NCBI GenBank assembly: GCA_016213105.1
Contig: JACRBN010000026.1
Span: 620,001-684,000, forward strand
DNA: 64,000 bases
Direction: 5' to 3'
Source: Chloroflexota bacterium
GTDB lineage: Bacteria; Chloroflexota; Anaerolineae; Anaerolineales; Villigracilaceae
Positions 40,331 to 45,782 of the stretch are shown piece by piece; within the stretch, counting starts at the first letter, position 1, and each line of letters opens with the position of its first letter. Position numbers and translations under genes: made by a program. Under the pieces are notes generated by a model, which ran no database searches, was not told where the DNA came from, and was given only the letters and a program-made list of their open reading frames with translations.

Positions 40331-41251
40331 TTATCCCTTGACGACCTTGAGCGCGTTGGGCATCACTTCGAAGCCGACCTGGCGCAGGTTGCTGCCGAAG
40401 CTGGTCAGGATCTCGCCGTCGGCGTGGATGTACAGCGGGCGGTCGGAGGTCAGGCTGAATTTTTGGCAGGCGCCCATGCGGATGTCGTTTGTGAAGCGGC
40501 GGTGGGTGCCGTTCATGAATTCGGGGATCAGGCGGAACATCTTGAGGCGCGAGACTTTTCGGACGGTGAGGAATTCGAGCAGGCCGTCGGTCATGCTCGA
40601 ATCGGGGGAAAGCATAAAGCCGCCGCCTTCGCGCCCGCCGTTGCACAGGGTGGTCATCAGGACTTCATCCTCCCATTTTTCCTGGTCGGTTTCGATCTGC
40701 ACATGCGCGGGATCGTGATTCAGAAGGATGGTCTGGATGACGGCGGTCAGGTACATCAGGAAGCCGCGCACGATGGGCAGTTTGTGCGAGCGAATGGTGA
40801 CCACGGCATCGAAACCCATGCCGAGCGTGTTGTCGAAATATTCCCGTCGGCCGTGTTCGTCGGTCAGCAGCCCCAGGTCGACCGTGGAGGCTTCCCCGCG
40901 CAGGGCGTGGGCCAGGGCATGGTCGGCTTTTTGAGGCACGCGGATGGCGTGGGCGAAGTCGTTGCCCGAGCCGACGGGCACCACACCCAGGACGGGCCGA
41001 CGCTCCGGGGGAATCTGCATCAAGCCGTTGACGACCTCGTGGACGGTGCCATCGCCGCCCATGGCGATCACCAGGTCATAGCCCTGTTCGCCCGCCTGCC
41101 TGGCCAGTTCGACGGCGTGGCCCGGATAGACCGTTCCGCTCCAGTCTGTGTTGCCGTGCTCGACGGCGATGGTGCGCAGGTCGCGCGCCACCTGCCAGGC
41201 ATGGCCCATATCGGCCATGGGATTCAAAATGATCTTGACTCGGTTGGACAT
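40331..41251 (-). CDS. Diacylglycerol/lipid kinase family protein
   Basis: 306 aa. N-terminal nucleotide-binding domain with NPMADMG and the signature AMGGDGTVHEVVNGL, then VGSGNDFAHAI, typical of the DagK/YegS/sphingosine-kinase family. The C-terminal half is the beta-sandwich lipid-binding domain (LYIHADGEIL near the end). It phosphorylates a lipid such as diacylglycerol at the membrane face. It precedes the XPB-like gene on the same strand by 67 bases, which is probably not functionally significant. Confidence 0.9.
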   Translation of the reverse strand: MSNRVKIILNPMADMGHAWQVARDLRTIAVEHGNTDWSGTVYPGHAVELARQAGEQGYDLVIAMGGDGTVHEVVNGLMQIPPERRPVLGVVPVGSGNDFAHAIRVPQKADHALAHALRGEASTVDLGLLTDEHGRREYFDNTLGMGFDAVVTIRSHKLPIVRGFLMYLTAVIQTILLNHDPAHVQIETDQEKWEDEVLMTTLCNGGREGGGFMLSPDSSMTDGLLEFLTVRKVSRLKMFRLIPEFMNGTHRRFTNDIRMGACQKFSLTSDRPLYIHADGEILTSFGSNLRQVGFEVMPNALKVVKG

Positions 41252-41319: not shown

Positions 41320-42570
41320 TTATTTTATTTTTGGCGCGGACAGCGGGCCGGTGAATCCGTGCGCGACCAGGAAGGAGCCGCGTTCGTGTTTCTTGGCGCG
41401 GTACAGGGCCTCGTCGGCGGCGCGCAGCAGGTCGGCTCCGCTCATGGCGTGGATGGGGTACATGGCGATCCCGCCCGAGACGCCCAGCTTGATTTTGCGG
41501 TCGTCGGGCATGCGGTGTTGGAACTGGTTGATCCTCTCCAGGATTTTTTCCGTGACGAGGCGCGCGGCGGGCAGGTCGGTATGCACGAGGATGAGGGTCA
41601 ATTCGTCGCCGCCGTAGCGGGCCAGAAAATCGGTGGAGCGCATCCCCGTGGCCAGGTAGTTGAAAATGGCGCGCAGCACCTGGTCGCCGATGGTATGCCC
41701 GTAGGTGTCGTTGACTTCCTTGAAGCCGTCTAGGTCCATCATGATGACCGAGAAGGGATAGCCATCGCGGCGCGCGGCCAGCACTTCCTTCTCCAGGCGC
41801 TCGTCCAGCGCGCGGCGGTTGGGCAGGCCCGTCACCGTGTCGCTGTAGGCCTGCCTGCTGACGATTTGGTGCAGGCTGGCGTTCGAGATGGCCACCGCGG
41901 CCTGGTCGGCCAGCAGCCCCAGCAGGCGCAGTTCGGACGGGGAGAATTTTCCCTCCACGCTGCGCGAGAGGTTCATCACGCCCACCACGTTGCGGTCGAT
42001 CATCAAGGGGATGCCAATGATCGAGCCTGCTTTTTTATACTGTACTTCGCTGAAAAAAATGTGGTTGAGCATGTCATCGATCTGGATGATCTCGCCGCTG
42101 TGCGCCACCGTGTTGGTGAGACCATTCCTGCGCGGGGGCATGTATGGAGTATTGCGCGCGCCATCCTGGTCGAGCGCCGCCCCAAATTCGAGCTTGCCAT
42201 CGTTGTAGAGGAAGATGTTGACGGTCAGCGCATACCGCACCAGGCGGATGGCCTCCGATGCGACGGCGGCCAGGACGGTTTGCAGGTCGAGGCTGGAGGT
42301 CAGGTTCAGGCTGAGCTTCTTCAGCGCATCCAGTTCGTCGGCCTGCTGCTTGAGCAACGCCAATAAGGCGTGACTGGCGGAATAGCCGTCCGCCTTGATC
42401 ACGCCTGTATTTTTATGCAGTGCGTTGATGGGCAAAGGCTGGGATGCCTCTGACATGGTGTTGATCAATGCAAGCAATTCCTGCCGCTCCGCCGGGGAGA
42501 GACGTCCATCCTCCATCACGATGCGGCGGGCTTGCGCCAATACCTCTGCCCGATGATTTGTTGTTTCCAT
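41320..42570 (-). CDS. GAF-GGDEF diguanylate cyclase
   Basis: 416 aa, no membrane segment. A short N-terminal helical region (1-75) precedes a GAF sensor domain (about 90-235, LQTVLAAVASEAIRLV to LLADQAAVAISNA). The GGDEF domain follows: DTVTGLPNRRALDE, MMDLDGFKEVNDTYGH, and the active site RYGGDEL. The last residue of GGDEF is Leu here; GGDEL is a mild variant that usually stays active. The inhibitory RxxD site (RSTD) five residues upstream is intact. It makes cyclic di-GMP in response to a small ligand or redox signal. Confidence 0.88.
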   Translation of the reverse strand: METTNHRAEVLAQARRIVMEDGRLSPAERQELLALINTMSEASQPLPINALHKNTGVIKADGYSASHALLALLKQQADELDALKKLSLNLTSSLDLQTVLAAVASEAIRLVRYALTVNIFLYNDGKLEFGAALDQDGARNTPYMPPRRNGLTNTVAHSGEIIQIDDMLNHIFFSEVQYKKAGSIIGIPLMIDRNVVGVMNLSRSVEGKFSPSELRLLGLLADQAAVAISNASLHQIVSRQAYSDTVTGLPNRRALDERLEKEVLAARRDGYPFSVIMMDLDGFKEVNDTYGHTIGDQVLRAIFNYLATGMRSTDFLARYGGDELTLILVHTDLPAARLVTEKILERINQFQHRMPDDRKIKLGVSGGIAMYPIHAMSGADLLRAADEALYRAKKHERGSFLVAHGFTGPLSAPKIK

Positions 42571-42742: not shown

Positions 42743-43528
42743 GTGTCTGACTCACCAAAGCCTGCCCCCGCCACCCCGCTCCAACCCCGCCGACGGGCGA
42801 TTCTGATTGGCGCATCCCAGGGGGTTGGCGCGGCTCTTGCTCGAAAACTGGCCAGGGAGGGCTATGTGCTGGCCCTGCTCGACCGCAACGCGGAACTATT
42901 GAACAAAGTGTGTGTGGGGATCAGCGCGGATGGCCTGAGCGCCACCCCATACCCTCATGACGTAACAGACTACGAAGCGGTTCCTGCGCTCCTGCGCCGC
43001 ATCGTGGCCGATCTGGGCGGCCTGGACCTGTTCGTGTACGTGGCGGGCGTGATCCATTTCCCCGCCCTGGATGAGTATAACTTCGAACAGGACCGCAAGA
43101 TGGTCGAGGTCAACCTGCTGGGCGCGATGGCCTGGATGAGCCAGATCGCCCCGATGTTCCAGAACGCGAAGAGCGGACAGATCGTGGGCATCTCGTCGGT
43201 GGCGGGCGACCGCGGCCGCATCGGCAACCCGGGTTACAACACCTCCAAGGCGGGACTCAGCACCTACCTCGAAGCGCTGCGCAACCGCCTGTCGCGCCAC
43301 GGGGTCAACGTTATCACCATCAAGCCAGGCATGGTCAAGACGGGGATGCTGTCCCTGCCCGGCGCGCCGCGTCCCATGTTTGCCGTCACGCCCGAGCGGG
43401 CCGCGGACGAGATCGCGCATGCCATTCGCAGGCGCAGCCAGGTCGTGTATGTCTCAGGTTTATGGCGGCTGATCATGCTGGTCATACGCCACATCCCATC
43501 GGTGATCTTCCGCCGCATGAAATTCTAA
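42743..43528 (+). CDS. dprE2: DprE2-like short-chain dehydrogenase
   Basis: 261 aa from GTG 42743, which has GGAG 7 bases upstream. SDR signatures are GASQGVG (23-29) for NAD(P), the catalytic Ser in GISSVAGDRG, and YNTSK. The C-terminus LVIRHIPSVIFRRMKF closely matches the RHIPRSIFRK ending of mycobacterial DprE2, and the length fits (254 aa). DprE2 reduces the 2-keto sugar made by DprE1 to yield decaprenylphosphoryl-arabinose. The next gene is a DprE1 homologue, which supports the call. The lipid carrier here need not be decaprenyl. Confidence 0.75.
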   Translation: MSDSPKPAPATPLQPRRRAILIGASQGVGAALARKLAREGYVLALLDRNAELLNKVCVGISADGLSATPYPHDVTDYEAVPALLRRIVADLGGLDLFVYVAGVIHFPALDEYNFEQDRKMVEVNLLGAMAWMSQIAPMFQNAKSGQIVGISSVAGDRGRIGNPGYNTSKAGLSTYLEALRNRLSRHGVNVITIKPGMVKTGMLSLPGAPRPMFAVTPERAADEIAHAIRRRSQVVYVSGLWRLIMLVIRHIPSVIFRRMKF

Positions 43529-43532
43529 AAAT

Positions 43533-43571
43533 AGACCCTAAGGGTTTCCAAAACCCTTAGGGTCTTATTTA
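43533..43571 (+). terminator. Intrinsic terminator after the DprE2-like gene
   Basis: AGACCCTAAGGGTTT (43533-43547) pairs perfectly with AAACCCTTAGGGTCT (43551-43565), loop CCA, then T-rich sequence. It separates the two Dpr-like genes and may reduce read-through. Confidence 0.85.
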
Positions 43572-43599
43572 AAAAAAGCAAAGAAGAAAAAAATTTAAA

Positions 43600-44982
43600 A
43601 TGAACAACACATTCACCCAGCTCGAAAACTTTGGGCATTCGCTCAAGACTGCCTGCTATCGCCTCCAACCCAGGAGCGTCGACGAAATCCACGAAGCGTT
43701 CCAACTTGCCAAGCAGCAGGGACTGACCGTCACTGCACGCGGCGCGGGACGCAGTTACAACGATGCCTCGCTCAACGGCGGCGGGATCGTGCTCGACCTG
43801 ACCGGGATGAACCAGATCCTCGAATGGGAGCCCGCCACGGGCATCGTCCGCGGCGAGCCAGGGGTCACGCTCAGCCAGTTGTGGCAGAAGGTCCTGCCCG
43901 ACGGCTGGTGGCCGCCCGTCGTCTCGGGCACCATGACCACCACCCTGGGCGGCTGCCTGGGGGCCAACATCCACGGCAAGAATAATTTCAAAATGGGCAC
44001 CATCGGCGAACACGTGATCGAGTTCACCGCGCTGCTGCCCACGGGCGCGGAAGTGACCTGCTCGCCGCAAAAGAACGCCGACCTGTTCTACTCGATGATT
44101 GGCGGCTATGGCATGCTGGGCATCTTCACCTCGGTCACGATGAAGATGAAAAAGATCGAGTCGGGCCTGCTCGAAGTCCACGCCTGGCCGACGCGCACGC
44201 TCAAGGAGCAATTGCAATCCCTGGAAGACGGCGCGCCCAATTACGATTACATCGTGGGCTGGCTGGATACGATCACCATCGGCCACGGCCAGATCCATGC
44301 CGCCAATTACCTGCACGGCAAGGAAGATCCCGAGCCGCAGAAGACCATCCAGCTTGCCTATCAGAACCTGCCCAGCCGCCTGTTCGGTGTCATGCCCAAA
44401 TCGATGCTGCATTATTTCATGACACCCTTCATGAACAACCTGGGCGCCTGGGGCATCAACACGGGCAAGTACATCACCAGTTTGCGCAAACACACCTTCC
44501 GCCAACCTCACGCGGCCTTCCACTTTTTGCTGGATTACGTTCCGCTGTGGGAATTGTCCTACGGGCGCAGTGGTCTCATCCAATACCAGTCCTTCCTGCC
44601 GAAGGAGACCGCCCTGCAAGCGTGGACCGAGATCCTGTCCATTGCCAAGCGGCAGGGCCTGCCCTCGTACCTCGGCGTGACCAAACGTCACCGCCCCGAC
44701 AAGTTCCTGCTGACCCACGCCGTGGACGGGTTCTCGCTGGCGATGGATTTCAAGGTCACGGACGGCAGCCGCGCGCGCATGTCCGCGATGCTGCAGGAGT
44801 TCGATCAGATCGTGCTGGCTAACGGCGGACGCTTCTACTTCGCCAAGAACAGCGAAACCTCCGCGGCCACCGCGCGGCAATTCTATGGCGAAGAGACCGT
44901 GGAGAAGTTCAGGAAATTGAAGAAGCGCTGCGACCCGAACGGGTTGTTGGAATCCGATCTGTATCGCAGGATTTTCGAATAA
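43600..44982 (+). CDS. dprE1: DprE1-like FAD-linked oxidase
   Basis: 460 aa (mycobacterial DprE1: 461). VAO-type FAD domain: TARGAGRSYNDASLN binds the cofactor, and GANIHGKNNF with H125 corresponds to the IHGKNHH region (H132) of DprE1. The C-terminal end (RFYFAKNSE, then CDPNGLLESDLYRRIF) also follows DprE1. It would oxidise the 2'-OH of a polyprenyl-phosphoryl ribose. No UbiA-type phosphoribosyltransferase is seen in the window. Alternatives are other FAD sugar oxidases such as alditol oxidase. Confidence 0.8.
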   Translation: MNNTFTQLENFGHSLKTACYRLQPRSVDEIHEAFQLAKQQGLTVTARGAGRSYNDASLNGGGIVLDLTGMNQILEWEPATGIVRGEPGVTLSQLWQKVLPDGWWPPVVSGTMTTTLGGCLGANIHGKNNFKMGTIGEHVIEFTALLPTGAEVTCSPQKNADLFYSMIGGYGMLGIFTSVTMKMKKIESGLLEVHAWPTRTLKEQLQSLEDGAPNYDYIVGWLDTITIGHGQIHAANYLHGKEDPEPQKTIQLAYQNLPSRLFGVMPKSMLHYFMTPFMNNLGAWGINTGKYITSLRKHTFRQPHAAFHFLLDYVPLWELSYGRSGLIQYQSFLPKETALQAWTEILSIAKRQGLPSYLGVTKRHRPDKFLLTHAVDGFSLAMDFKVTDGSRARMSAMLQEFDQIVLANGGRFYFAKNSETSAATARQFYGEETVEKFRKLKKRCDPNGLLESDLYRRIFE

Positions 44983-45035
44983 CAAACGTCGGGGCGGGGT
45001 CATCCCGCCCCGACAATTTATATGGATTTATCGGT

Positions 45036-45782
45036 ATGAAATTGGACGTCATCGACCTGGGCTTGATCGAATACGAAACTGCCTGGAAATTGCAGGATGA
45101 ATACGCGGCGGACATTGCCCTCGGCAATCGTCCGCCGACGTTGCTGCTGCTGGAGCATCCGCACACGTTCACGTTTGGACGCAGGGGCCAGGCGGAGAAT
45201 CTGCTGTGGGATGAAGAGGAATTGAAGCGGCGCGGCGTATCCGTCCACTGGGTGGATCGCGGCGGCGACGTGACCTATCACGGGCCAGGGCAGTTGGTGG
45301 GATATCCGCTGATTCCGCTGGGCTCGATCAGACCTGACAGGTCTCCCGCGGAGTCTTCAAGCCTTGAAGAGGATTCCGAAAAACCTGTCAGGTCTGTGGA
45401 CTATGTCGGTTACGTGCGCAAACTGGAGGGGACGCTCATCGCGGCGCTGGCGCGTCTGGGCGTGGGAGCAGGCCAACGTCCAGGCAAGACGGGGGTGTGG
45501 ATCCAGGCGGATGCGTATTCACGTTGTCCACGCTGTCGACCTGAGGATCGTGAGAAACCCGCCAAGCTGGCGGCTATCGGCGTCAAGGTGGATGCGCGCG
45601 GCGTGACCCGCCACGGCTTCGCGCTGAGTGTCAATCCCGACATGACCTATTGGGACGGCATCATCGCCTGCGGGCTGGCGGGCGAGCCCGTCGTCTCACT
45701 GGAGGATTTGCTTTCTCCGCTGCCCTCGATGGAGCGTGTGAAGCAGGAAGTCATCCACGCGTTTATGGAAGTGTTCACATAA
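45036..45782 (+). CDS. lipB: Lipoyl(octanoyl) transferase LipB with an in-frame repeat insertion
   Basis: 248 aa. LipB motifs: LLLLEHPHTFTFGRRG, the acyl pocket RGGDVTYHGPGQLVGYP, catalytic K177 (AKLAAIGVKV) and C212 (IIACGLAGE). It moves octanoate from acyl-carrier protein to lipoyl domains. Residues about 99-120 between GYPLIPL and VDYVGYVRKLE are a Ser/Glu-rich insert coded exactly by a palindromic repeat (45330-45395). A second small insert near 161-174 holds CPRC. Both fall in variable loops, so activity is probably kept. A bidirectional terminator follows. Confidence 0.92.
   Translation: MKLDVIDLGLIEYETAWKLQDEYAADIALGNRPPTLLLLEHPHTFTFGRRGQAENLLWDEEELKRRGVSVHWVDRGGDVTYHGPGQLVGYPLIPLGSIRPDRSPAESSSLEEDSEKPVRSVDYVGYVRKLEGTLIAALARLGVGAGQRPGKTGVWIQADAYSRCPRCRPEDREKPAKLAAIGVKVDARGVTRHGFALSVNPDMTYWDGIIACGLAGEPVVSLEDLLSPLPSMERVKQEVIHAFMEVFT
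45330..45395. repeat. Palindromic repeat inside lipB
   Basis: AGACCTGACAGGT (45330-45342) and ACCTGTCAGGTCT (45383-45395) are perfect inverted arms. Inside, TCTTCAAG (45354-45361) and CTTGAAGA (45363-45370) form a second hairpin. The element is 66 bases, a multiple of three, so the frame is kept. Confidence 0.85.

Follow-up and report, generated by a model that had tools for sequence, protein, structure and literature searches.

DprE1/DprE2, the enzyme pair with which Mycobacteriales (Rv3790/Rv3791) convert a lipid-linked ribose into the arabinofuranose donor of their cell wall, is known above all as a target of drugs against tuberculosis. Outside Actinobacteria, arabinosylated Nod factors have been predicted from the noeCHOP genes of Sinorhizobium alkalisoli YIC4027 (PMC6689892). 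Other work, by Kelly et al. (2024, PNAS; PMC11127046), dealt with systems made of a polyprenyl-phosphoryl-ribose synthase (PPPRS), a flippase and a GT-C glycosyltransferase, and reported DprE1/E2 homologs in candidate systems for glycans containing arabinofuranose (Araf). According to the same paper, xylofuranose (Xylf) can be obtained from the same ribofuranose (Ribf) precursor through another epimerase, and lipid-linked ribose is itself used in Citrobacter. In this line, the window analysed here (the whole stretch of 64,000 nt, positions 620,001 to 684,000 of contig JACRBN010000026.1, from a Chloroflexota genome assembly of 5.39 Mb in 28 contigs with a completeness of 97.55%) contains a tandem of two genes for a short-chain dehydrogenase/reductase (SDR) and a flavin adenine dinucleotide (FAD) oxidase (Table 1). 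We consider that this pair is probably a two-enzyme redox 2′-epimerase of polyprenyl-phosphoryl-ribofuranose, from an ancient branch within the DprE1/DprE2 superfamily that most members of its bacterial family carry. The pair is DprE1/DprE2-like by family; its enzymatic activity, substrate, product and glycan we infer.

Both open reading frames (ORFs) lie on one strand with a spacer of 71 bp, and their products of 261 and 460 amino acids compare well with the DprE2 and DprE1 chains of the known complex in PDB 21gq (254 and 461 amino acids). Two adjacent genes of DprE1/DprE2-like length had been claimed by the original prediction, together with an IHGKN motif in the oxidase and a RHIP..IFRR-type end in the SDR, and all of these are found in the window. 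The HGKN of this FAD-site motif is present in 63 of 63 aligned DprE1-type sequences, with the preceding Ile varying to Val or Ala. Further features shared with the Mycobacteriales system are 11 of 14 inhibitor contacts, the C-terminal IPxxIFRR and a UbiA protein of the decaprenyl-phosphoryl-5-phosphoribose (DPPR) synthase type encoded in the genome. On the other hand, the window pair differs in the reversed gene order (SDR then oxidase, against oxidase then SDR in the actinobacterial loci examined), in an identity of the oxidase of 30-31% to three actinobacterial DprE1 sequences, in scores below the equivalog cut-offs, in the replacements Cys387 to Ala, F369 to His, N385 to Ser and S228 to Val, and in the absence of a cell-wall cluster around the pair and of an Emb homologue in the genome.

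A second term of comparison is the plasmid of S. alkalisoli YIC4027, which carries genes in the order UbiA-GtrA-oxidase-SDR-hypothetical, adjoining acyl-carrier-protein and ketosynthase genes; these would be the noe genes. This rhizobial locus also holds a non-actinobacterial pair with an SDR of the PRK07102 kind (as scanned in a near-identical Agrobacterium copy), but it keeps the synthase and GtrA genes beside the pair, shows the order oxidase then SDR and falls in a separate clade. A plasmid collection gave 62 records, including 34 from Rhizobium, that encode a relative of the window oxidase (E ≤ 1e-20), and pairs beside UbiA-family or prenyltransferase genes were seen in Paracoccus, Rhizobium, Agrobacterium, Sinorhizobium and Azospirillum. 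Among 11 plasmids chosen for inspection such a gene was near the pair in all six alphaproteobacterial ones, and no UbiA-family gene was annotated in the inspected stretch of the acidobacterial one. The three-component pentofuranose systems (PMC11127046) are comparable in their proposed polyprenyl-phosphoryl-ribose, derived from phosphoribosyl pyrophosphate (PRPP), in their auxiliary epimerases and in the PPPRS gene also present in the genome studied here; in contrast to them, the components are unclustered in the window, and flippase and GT-C enzyme are unassigned. That the pair lies outside Actinobacteria, as originally stressed, is therefore true and unsurprising, since alphaproteobacterial plasmid pairs and papers on rhizobial Nod factors and candidate Araf systems precede it, and DprE1/DprE2 occurrence outside Actinobacteria is not new. 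In the open-licence literature no paper was found on DprE1 in Chloroflexota, and nothing relevant on DprE1 phylogeny, Proteobacteria or UbiA in titles and abstract starts; within the literature so searched, the deep Chloroflexota clade seems to be new.

As judged by sequence, the nearest relatives of known function of the window oxidase are, by a wide margin, DprE1 enzymes. The protein scored 285.6 bits on the NCBIfam DprE1 model (NF053785), the next family reaching 64.2 bits, and its nine best distinct PDB sequences in phmmer searches were all DprE1, with E-values from 1.7e-56 (4aut) to 1.4e-50, the best non-DprE1 chain following at 2.8e-15. An AlphaFold model of moderate confidence (mean predicted local distance difference test score, pLDDT, of 65) had DprE1 entries as its 48 best Foldseek matches, four of them recognised under titles without the protein name. 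The superposition with 4aut (Z 25.8, 387 residues, 3.7 Å), followed by a best non-DprE1 match with Z 21.1 over 386 residues at 4.6 Å, backs the evidence from sequence, with little gained beyond it.

A closer view of the pocket was obtained from an alignment of 63 DprE1-type sequences, 21 of which belong to what we call class III, i.e., the window oxidase and its closest Chloroflexota relatives (classes I and II are described below). Residues are numbered after M. tuberculosis DprE1, in the correspondence of numbers and motifs that we take to hold, and Y60 and Q334 are presumably members of the pocket. The nine residues Y60, H132, G133, K134, W230, Q334, Q336, K367 and K418 are all present in the window oxidase, and every one except Q334 is identical in 21/21 class III sequences; Q334, V365 and G117 are conserved in 20/21, L363 in 19/21 and L317 in 17/21. 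Six other FAD oxidases, distantly aligned as an outgroup, gave over eight positions a single match in a single sequence, His at 132. Fourteen DprE1 residues are given as inhibitor contacts in the M. tuberculosis enzyme (PMC6128881), and the window oxidase keeps 11 of them (G117, H132, G133, K134, W230, L317, Q336, L363, V365, K367 and K418). The same source describes Cys387 as the anchor of benzothiazinones and as dispensable for DprE1 activity. Cys387 is found in 0/21 class III and 0/39 other non-actinobacterial sequences, and the Ala that replaces it in the window oxidase also occurs in 3/3 class I and 6/6 alphaproteobacterial sequences; with this change, the window oxidase would be expected to escape covalent benzothiazinones.

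The SDR, with YNTSK as its YxxxK catalytic motif, is by profile comparison the best DprE2-type (PRK07102) SDR of its genome. In a genome-wide ranking on the PRK07102 model it reached 192.8 bits, followed by the SDR of a second pair described below (132.4 bits) and by a third protein at 85.9 bits, the two top SDRs being precisely those that adjoin the two DprE1-like oxidases. Three SDRs were scanned from alphaproteobacterial loci that combine UbiA and oxidase genes, and all three had PRK07102 as their top model (336-373 bits); another class III SDR (L054) scored 228 bits on it. A loose C-terminal pattern, composed post hoc after inspection of the protein ends, was found in 18/20 class III SDRs and 42/42 other DprE2-type SDRs, and in 0/12 other SDRs of the genome.

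Phylogenetic trees were built from 53 oxidases, including six other oxidases as outgroup and only three actinobacterial sequences, and from 59 SDRs, with 13 further ones from the window's genome as outgroup. DprE1-type sequences split from the six other oxidases with a support of 97/97 and DprE2-type ones from the 13 other SDRs with 100/98, so that the pair groups with DprE1/DprE2 and apart from unrelated oxidases and SDRs, the outcome that the original prediction had anticipated. Class III formed one group of the window oxidase and 20 further sequences (93/92), facing another group (93/87) of the genome's own second copy and of the actinobacterial plus class I, alphaproteobacterial, cyanobacterial, acidobacterial and class II sequences. 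In the SDR tree, class III (20 sequences, 100/99) faced the same groups (91/92), except that the own second copy, a long branch in both trees, was placed outside both groups (81/33), unlike in the oxidase tree. In both trees the window pair falls outside the actinobacterial sequences. A separate deep clade is our best estimate from these trees, a non-actinobacterial origin being unproven.

Relatives in named genomes numbered 430, of which the best 80, with 67-85% identity to the oxidase, were kept and provide the 80 loci counted throughout. As expected for the predicted Chloroflexota host, these best 80 came from Chloroflexi/Chloroflexota bacteria, Anaerolineae, Anaerolineales (an order of Chloroflexota), Anaerolineaceae, Anaerolinea and Brevefilum. 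An SDR with the orientation of the oxidase precedes it in all 80 loci; the two are no more than 178 bp apart in 76 loci and 876-1904 bp apart in four, as measured between tblastn matches. Twenty further class III loci had an upstream SDR in 19 cases, one of them about 3 kb away, and none in genome G358. Within the window's family, where the synteny around the pair is conserved, 86 of 100 genomes have an oxidase match of at least 600 bits; in the others we find a fragment only (three genomes), a homologue with 36% identity (one) or no trace (ten). Seven of these ten belong to a single genus, g229 of family f1, which has apparently lost the class III oxidase and would be useful for a comparison of envelopes; in three of its genomes, G435, G449 and G466 (completeness 90-96%), the synthase is retained without a class III oxidase. 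All pair counts rest on BLAST or profile matches, and clusters of neighbours from our greedy gene caller are lower bounds, as this program preferred a 492-amino-acid antisense ORF to the window oxidase and overlooked the second pair's SDR.

In 400 Chloroflexota genomes, classes were assigned by score and matched part of the DprE1 model, with 21 class III sequences checked in trees. Class I (about 665 bits) was found in 3 genomes, class II (mostly 365-400 bits) in 34 and class III (200-302 bits) in 52, five genomes carrying both II and III. Like the window pair, class II pairs (family f30 and others) are oxidase/SDR pairs of the same phylum; unlike class III, they are nearer to alphaproteobacterial and acidobacterial pairs and show the order oxidase then SDR. 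Class I consists of loci L009, L010 and L011 (genomes G235, G345 and G399, family f33), with actinobacterial-type DprE1 over the NCBIfam cut-off and a UbiA-type gene beside the oxidase in G235 and G399; these oxidases are sister to the actinobacterial sequences, transfer and contamination being both candidates. In G340 (L116:3473-9824), a class II pair forms part of a compact cassette, in which a synthase-type gene divergent from a GT-C gene of PMT_2 type is followed by the DprE1-like and DprE2-like genes; by its gene content this cassette may be a full pentofuranose system of a Chloroflexota genome.

The genome of the window also encodes a second, divergent pair (Table 1), preceded by a membrane protein with a sub-cut-off, GT-C-like PMT_2 match. 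An O-antigen-ligase domain was scanned around it, and an ATP-binding cassette (ABC) transporter and glycosyltransferases were recognised by eye, surroundings that look like a polysaccharide cluster. Its oxidase retains Y60, H132, K134, Q336, K367 and K418 and is devoid of W230 and Q334. With two epimerase-like pairs in one cell, their substrates may differ.

Regarding the supply of the presumed precursor, the genome gave seven matches to the UbiA family, of which one stayed below the cut-off. The protein encoded at L063:7810-8682(-) of contig C24 matched the decaprenyl-phosphate phosphoribosyltransferase model NF008977 with 280.9 bits (cut-off 234). The tandem UbiA genes of contig C17, whose best models are MenA-type and weak, were rejected as candidates for the synthase. 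Among the other UbiA matches, L067 is haem O synthase and L064 is MenA, L065 being unassigned. Among Chloroflexota genomes whose DprE1-like protein scores 199 bits or more, 81 of 84 have a synthase at E ≤ 1e-30, vs 162 of 316 others, the latter including the fragment-only genomes G100, G140 and G228 (Fisher p 7e-17 over 400 genomes, kinship ignored); in some families the synthase is weakly matched (E 1e-35 to 1e-50). Of the 47 genomes in which class III is the sole class assigned, 44 have the synthase. In the window's family, 94 of 100 genomes have a synthase of at least 226 bits, 84/86 of those with class III and 7/10 of those without a trace of it. Both genes share a contig in nine genomes picked by eye as an uncontrolled sample, at distances of 8, 16, 26, 29, 41, 47, 172, 313 and 2639 kb, and in G269 a single 9-kb stretch, part of the same syntenic block, contains synthase and pair. 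A mevalonate-kinase-like gene, named by eye, adjoins the synthase in 12/30 PPPRS loci, among them L077 and L063 as examples from family f1. Genome-wide searches for transferases and flippases gave 1 GtrA, 11 GT87 and 26 PMT_2 matches, none of them adjoining the pair or assignable.

Altogether, a route can be proposed in which the phosphoribosyltransferase of the UbiA family, whose gene lies away from the pair, would move ribose-5-phosphate from PRPP to polyprenyl phosphate and a putative phosphatase would take off the 5-phosphate. The FAD oxidase, to judge from its family and the kept pocket, would then turn the 2′-hydroxyl into a ketone, which the SDR would reduce with the opposite stereochemistry to yield polyprenyl-phosphoryl-arabinofuranose. 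Finally, the lipid would be flipped and a GT-C enzyme, for which the genome has candidates, none tied to the pair, would pass the pentofuranose to a surface glycan.

A number of results weigh against this proposal, some of them touching the identity of the proteins. The oxidase stays under the DprE1 equivalog cut-off (285.6 vs 500 bits), scores lower than all nine non-class-III sequences scanned on that model, and shares 27-31% identity with other DprE1-type sequences and 24% with the own second copy. The SDR does not reach the curated cut-off of its top model, PRK07102 (NF005489; 193 vs 267 bits), and on the NCBIfam DprE2 model (NF053786), sixth in its list, it scored 127 bits vs a cut-off of 250. 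Searches of PDB sequences, in which the DprE2 chain ranked 21st, and with the model fold of the SDR, where DprE2 was not among the 50 matches listed, were non-discriminating because any SDR matches. Moreover, the split of the oxidase tree falls to 75/36 with four outgroup sequences and a thinner set. Sub-cut-off scores, a generic SDR fold and this reduced split would suit an unrelated sugar oxidase of the vanillyl-alcohol oxidase (VAO) type accompanied by a generic SDR, the resemblance being superfamily-level only; in view of both trees, the conserved pocket, the co-orientation in 80/80 loci and the genome-wide SDR ranking, we regard this explanation as very improbable. The same ranking and both trees, together with the pocket residues and the conserved gene arrangement, also led us to reject a chance neighbourhood of a generic oxidase and an SDR. 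The DprE1 model gives 754 and 809 bits for two actinobacterial oxidases and 273 for the class III oxidase L054, and its cut-off is likewise missed by four oxidases from Alphaproteobacteria (401-470) and by one each from a cyanobacterium (468), class II (400) and an acidobacterium (335), so that a missed cut-off alone does not exclude an enzyme of the DprE1 kind. The DprE2 cut-off is similarly missed by three alphaproteobacterial SDRs (178-193 bits), two actinobacterial ones reaching 380 and 423. What stands of the predicted DprE1/DprE2-like pair is thus its family-level grouping, with both proteins below the equivalog cut-offs and outside the actinobacterial sequences in both trees. A functional DprE1/DprE2 acquired by ancient transfer from an actinobacterium and later diverged would agree with the approximately unbiased (AU) test, which did not reject a single clade uniting class III with the class I and actinobacterial oxidases (p 0.211); it seems improbable to us, as the best trees place class III outside (oxidase 93/92 vs 93/87; SDR 100/99 vs 91/92), the gene order is reversed and the family synteny conserved. 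Recent transfer from Actinobacteria is not favoured by the 30-31% identity, the deep clade of its own and the family synteny.

The remaining adverse points concern the substrate and the pathway. F369 is replaced by His and N385 by Ser in 21/21 class III sequences, Y314 by His in 16/21 and S228 by Val in 20/21 (Val at 228 being usual elsewhere, in 33/38 other non-actinobacterial sequences with the own second copy excluded), and position 387 is occupied by Ala in 17, Ser in three and Glu in one; given these changes at pocket positions, the substrate may differ. A synthase close to the pair was found in 0/80 related loci within up to 6 kb around each, and no flippase or GT-C gene was recognised among eight scanned neighbourhood proteins. 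In f2, another family within this order, nine of nine sampled genomes encode the synthase and lack a DprE1-like protein scoring 199 bits or more, which would fit the use of lipid-linked ribose itself, as in Citrobacter. Of the two companions that the original prediction had proposed to look for, a DPPR-synthase-type UbiA is encoded (280.9 bits), and the arabinosyltransferase Emb (PF04602) gave no match in the genome with the C. glutamicum control positive, the AftA, AftB and AftD models not being searched. The predicted lipid-linked arabinose of the envelope remains an expectation in this respect, with no Emb homologue and no flippase or transferase recognised beside the pair; besides, it could be the second pair that makes arabinose. 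A two-step redox epimerase of this type acting on another lipid-linked sugar, or leading to another pentofuranose (e.g., a C3 epimer), would account for the class III signatures at F369, N385 and Y314, for a pair unlinked to synthase or glycan cluster and for the second, divergent pair in a polysaccharide cluster, and the formation of Xylf from the Ribf precursor offers an example (PMC11127046). Set against the synthase in 44/47 class-III-only genomes and the intact Tyr/His/Lys/Trp/Gln set of the pocket, this alternative appears unlikely, and it is retained mainly because of the two epimerase-like pairs in one cell.

Around the window pair, lipB follows the oxidase and is probably outside the pathway. 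On the opposite strand upstream of the pair, the GAF-GGDEF gene and the YegS-type lipid kinase are followed by a helicase-domain gene and then by KBL (named by eye), the latter near the pair in 32/80 related loci, several of which are short stretches. GGDEF, yegS, lipB and KBL are taken as inherited neighbours rather than pathway genes. The palindrome of the spacer recurs exactly once elsewhere in the genome (C2:29938-29968). Of 72 related loci examined (8 of the 80 being dropped), 6 have inverted repeats with CCCTAAAG arms upstream of their oxidase gene, an uncontrolled count. In the window, a GC-rich stem-loop lies at 44988-45014, between oxidase and lipB.

Table 1. Positions of the window pair, its neighbours and the second pair of the same genome (window positions unless a locus is given).
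Feature	Position	Strand	Basis or remark
DprE2-like SDR reductase, 261 aa, GTG start	42743..43528	+	ORF; PRK07102/DprE2 models; tree; C terminus
SDR C terminus RHIPSVIFRRMKF (reads RHIPSVIFRR)	end of 42743..43528	+	translation
DprE1-like FAD oxidase, 460 aa, ATG start	43600..44982	+	ORF; DprE1 model; PDB 4aut; pocket residues; tree; model fold
Palindrome/stem-loop in SDR-oxidase spacer	43533..43565	.	near-perfect palindrome
lipB (lipoyl(octanoyl) transferase), 53 bp 3′ of oxidase	45036..45782	+	kept neighbour, 59/80 related loci
GAF-GGDEF diguanylate cyclase, divergent from pair	41320..42570	-	kept neighbour, 63/80 related loci
YegS/DAGK-type lipid kinase	40331..41251	-	kept neighbour, 60/80 related loci
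Second, divergent DprE1/DprE2-like pair with membrane protein	L062:7114-10600 (contig C17, 92114-95600)		polysaccharide-cluster setting
Second-pair oxidase	L062:8526-9869		204.6 bits on DprE1 model
Second-pair SDR	L062:9866-10600		4-bp overlap with oxidase; order oxidase then SDR

Returning to the reading that we prefer, a 2′-epimerase of polyprenyl-phosphoryl-ribofuranose, a bolder version can be put forward tentatively, as a possibility for which we would claim rather less than even confidence. The window pair would represent a third deep clade of polyprenyl-phosphoryl-pentose epimerases, at least as old as the actinobacterial one, a core trait of a large family of Anaerolineales that, together with the widespread ribose-lipid synthase, would lead to a so far unrecognised pentofuranose (arabinofuranose) in the envelope through a DprE1-like enzyme lacking Cys387. 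If this is true, the origin of the two-enzyme epimerase would be moved well outside Actinobacteria, and the divergent enzymes of the clade would offer natural variants for structure-function comparison. An unexamined sugar would then be predicted in the surface glycans of abundant and barely cultured bacteria.

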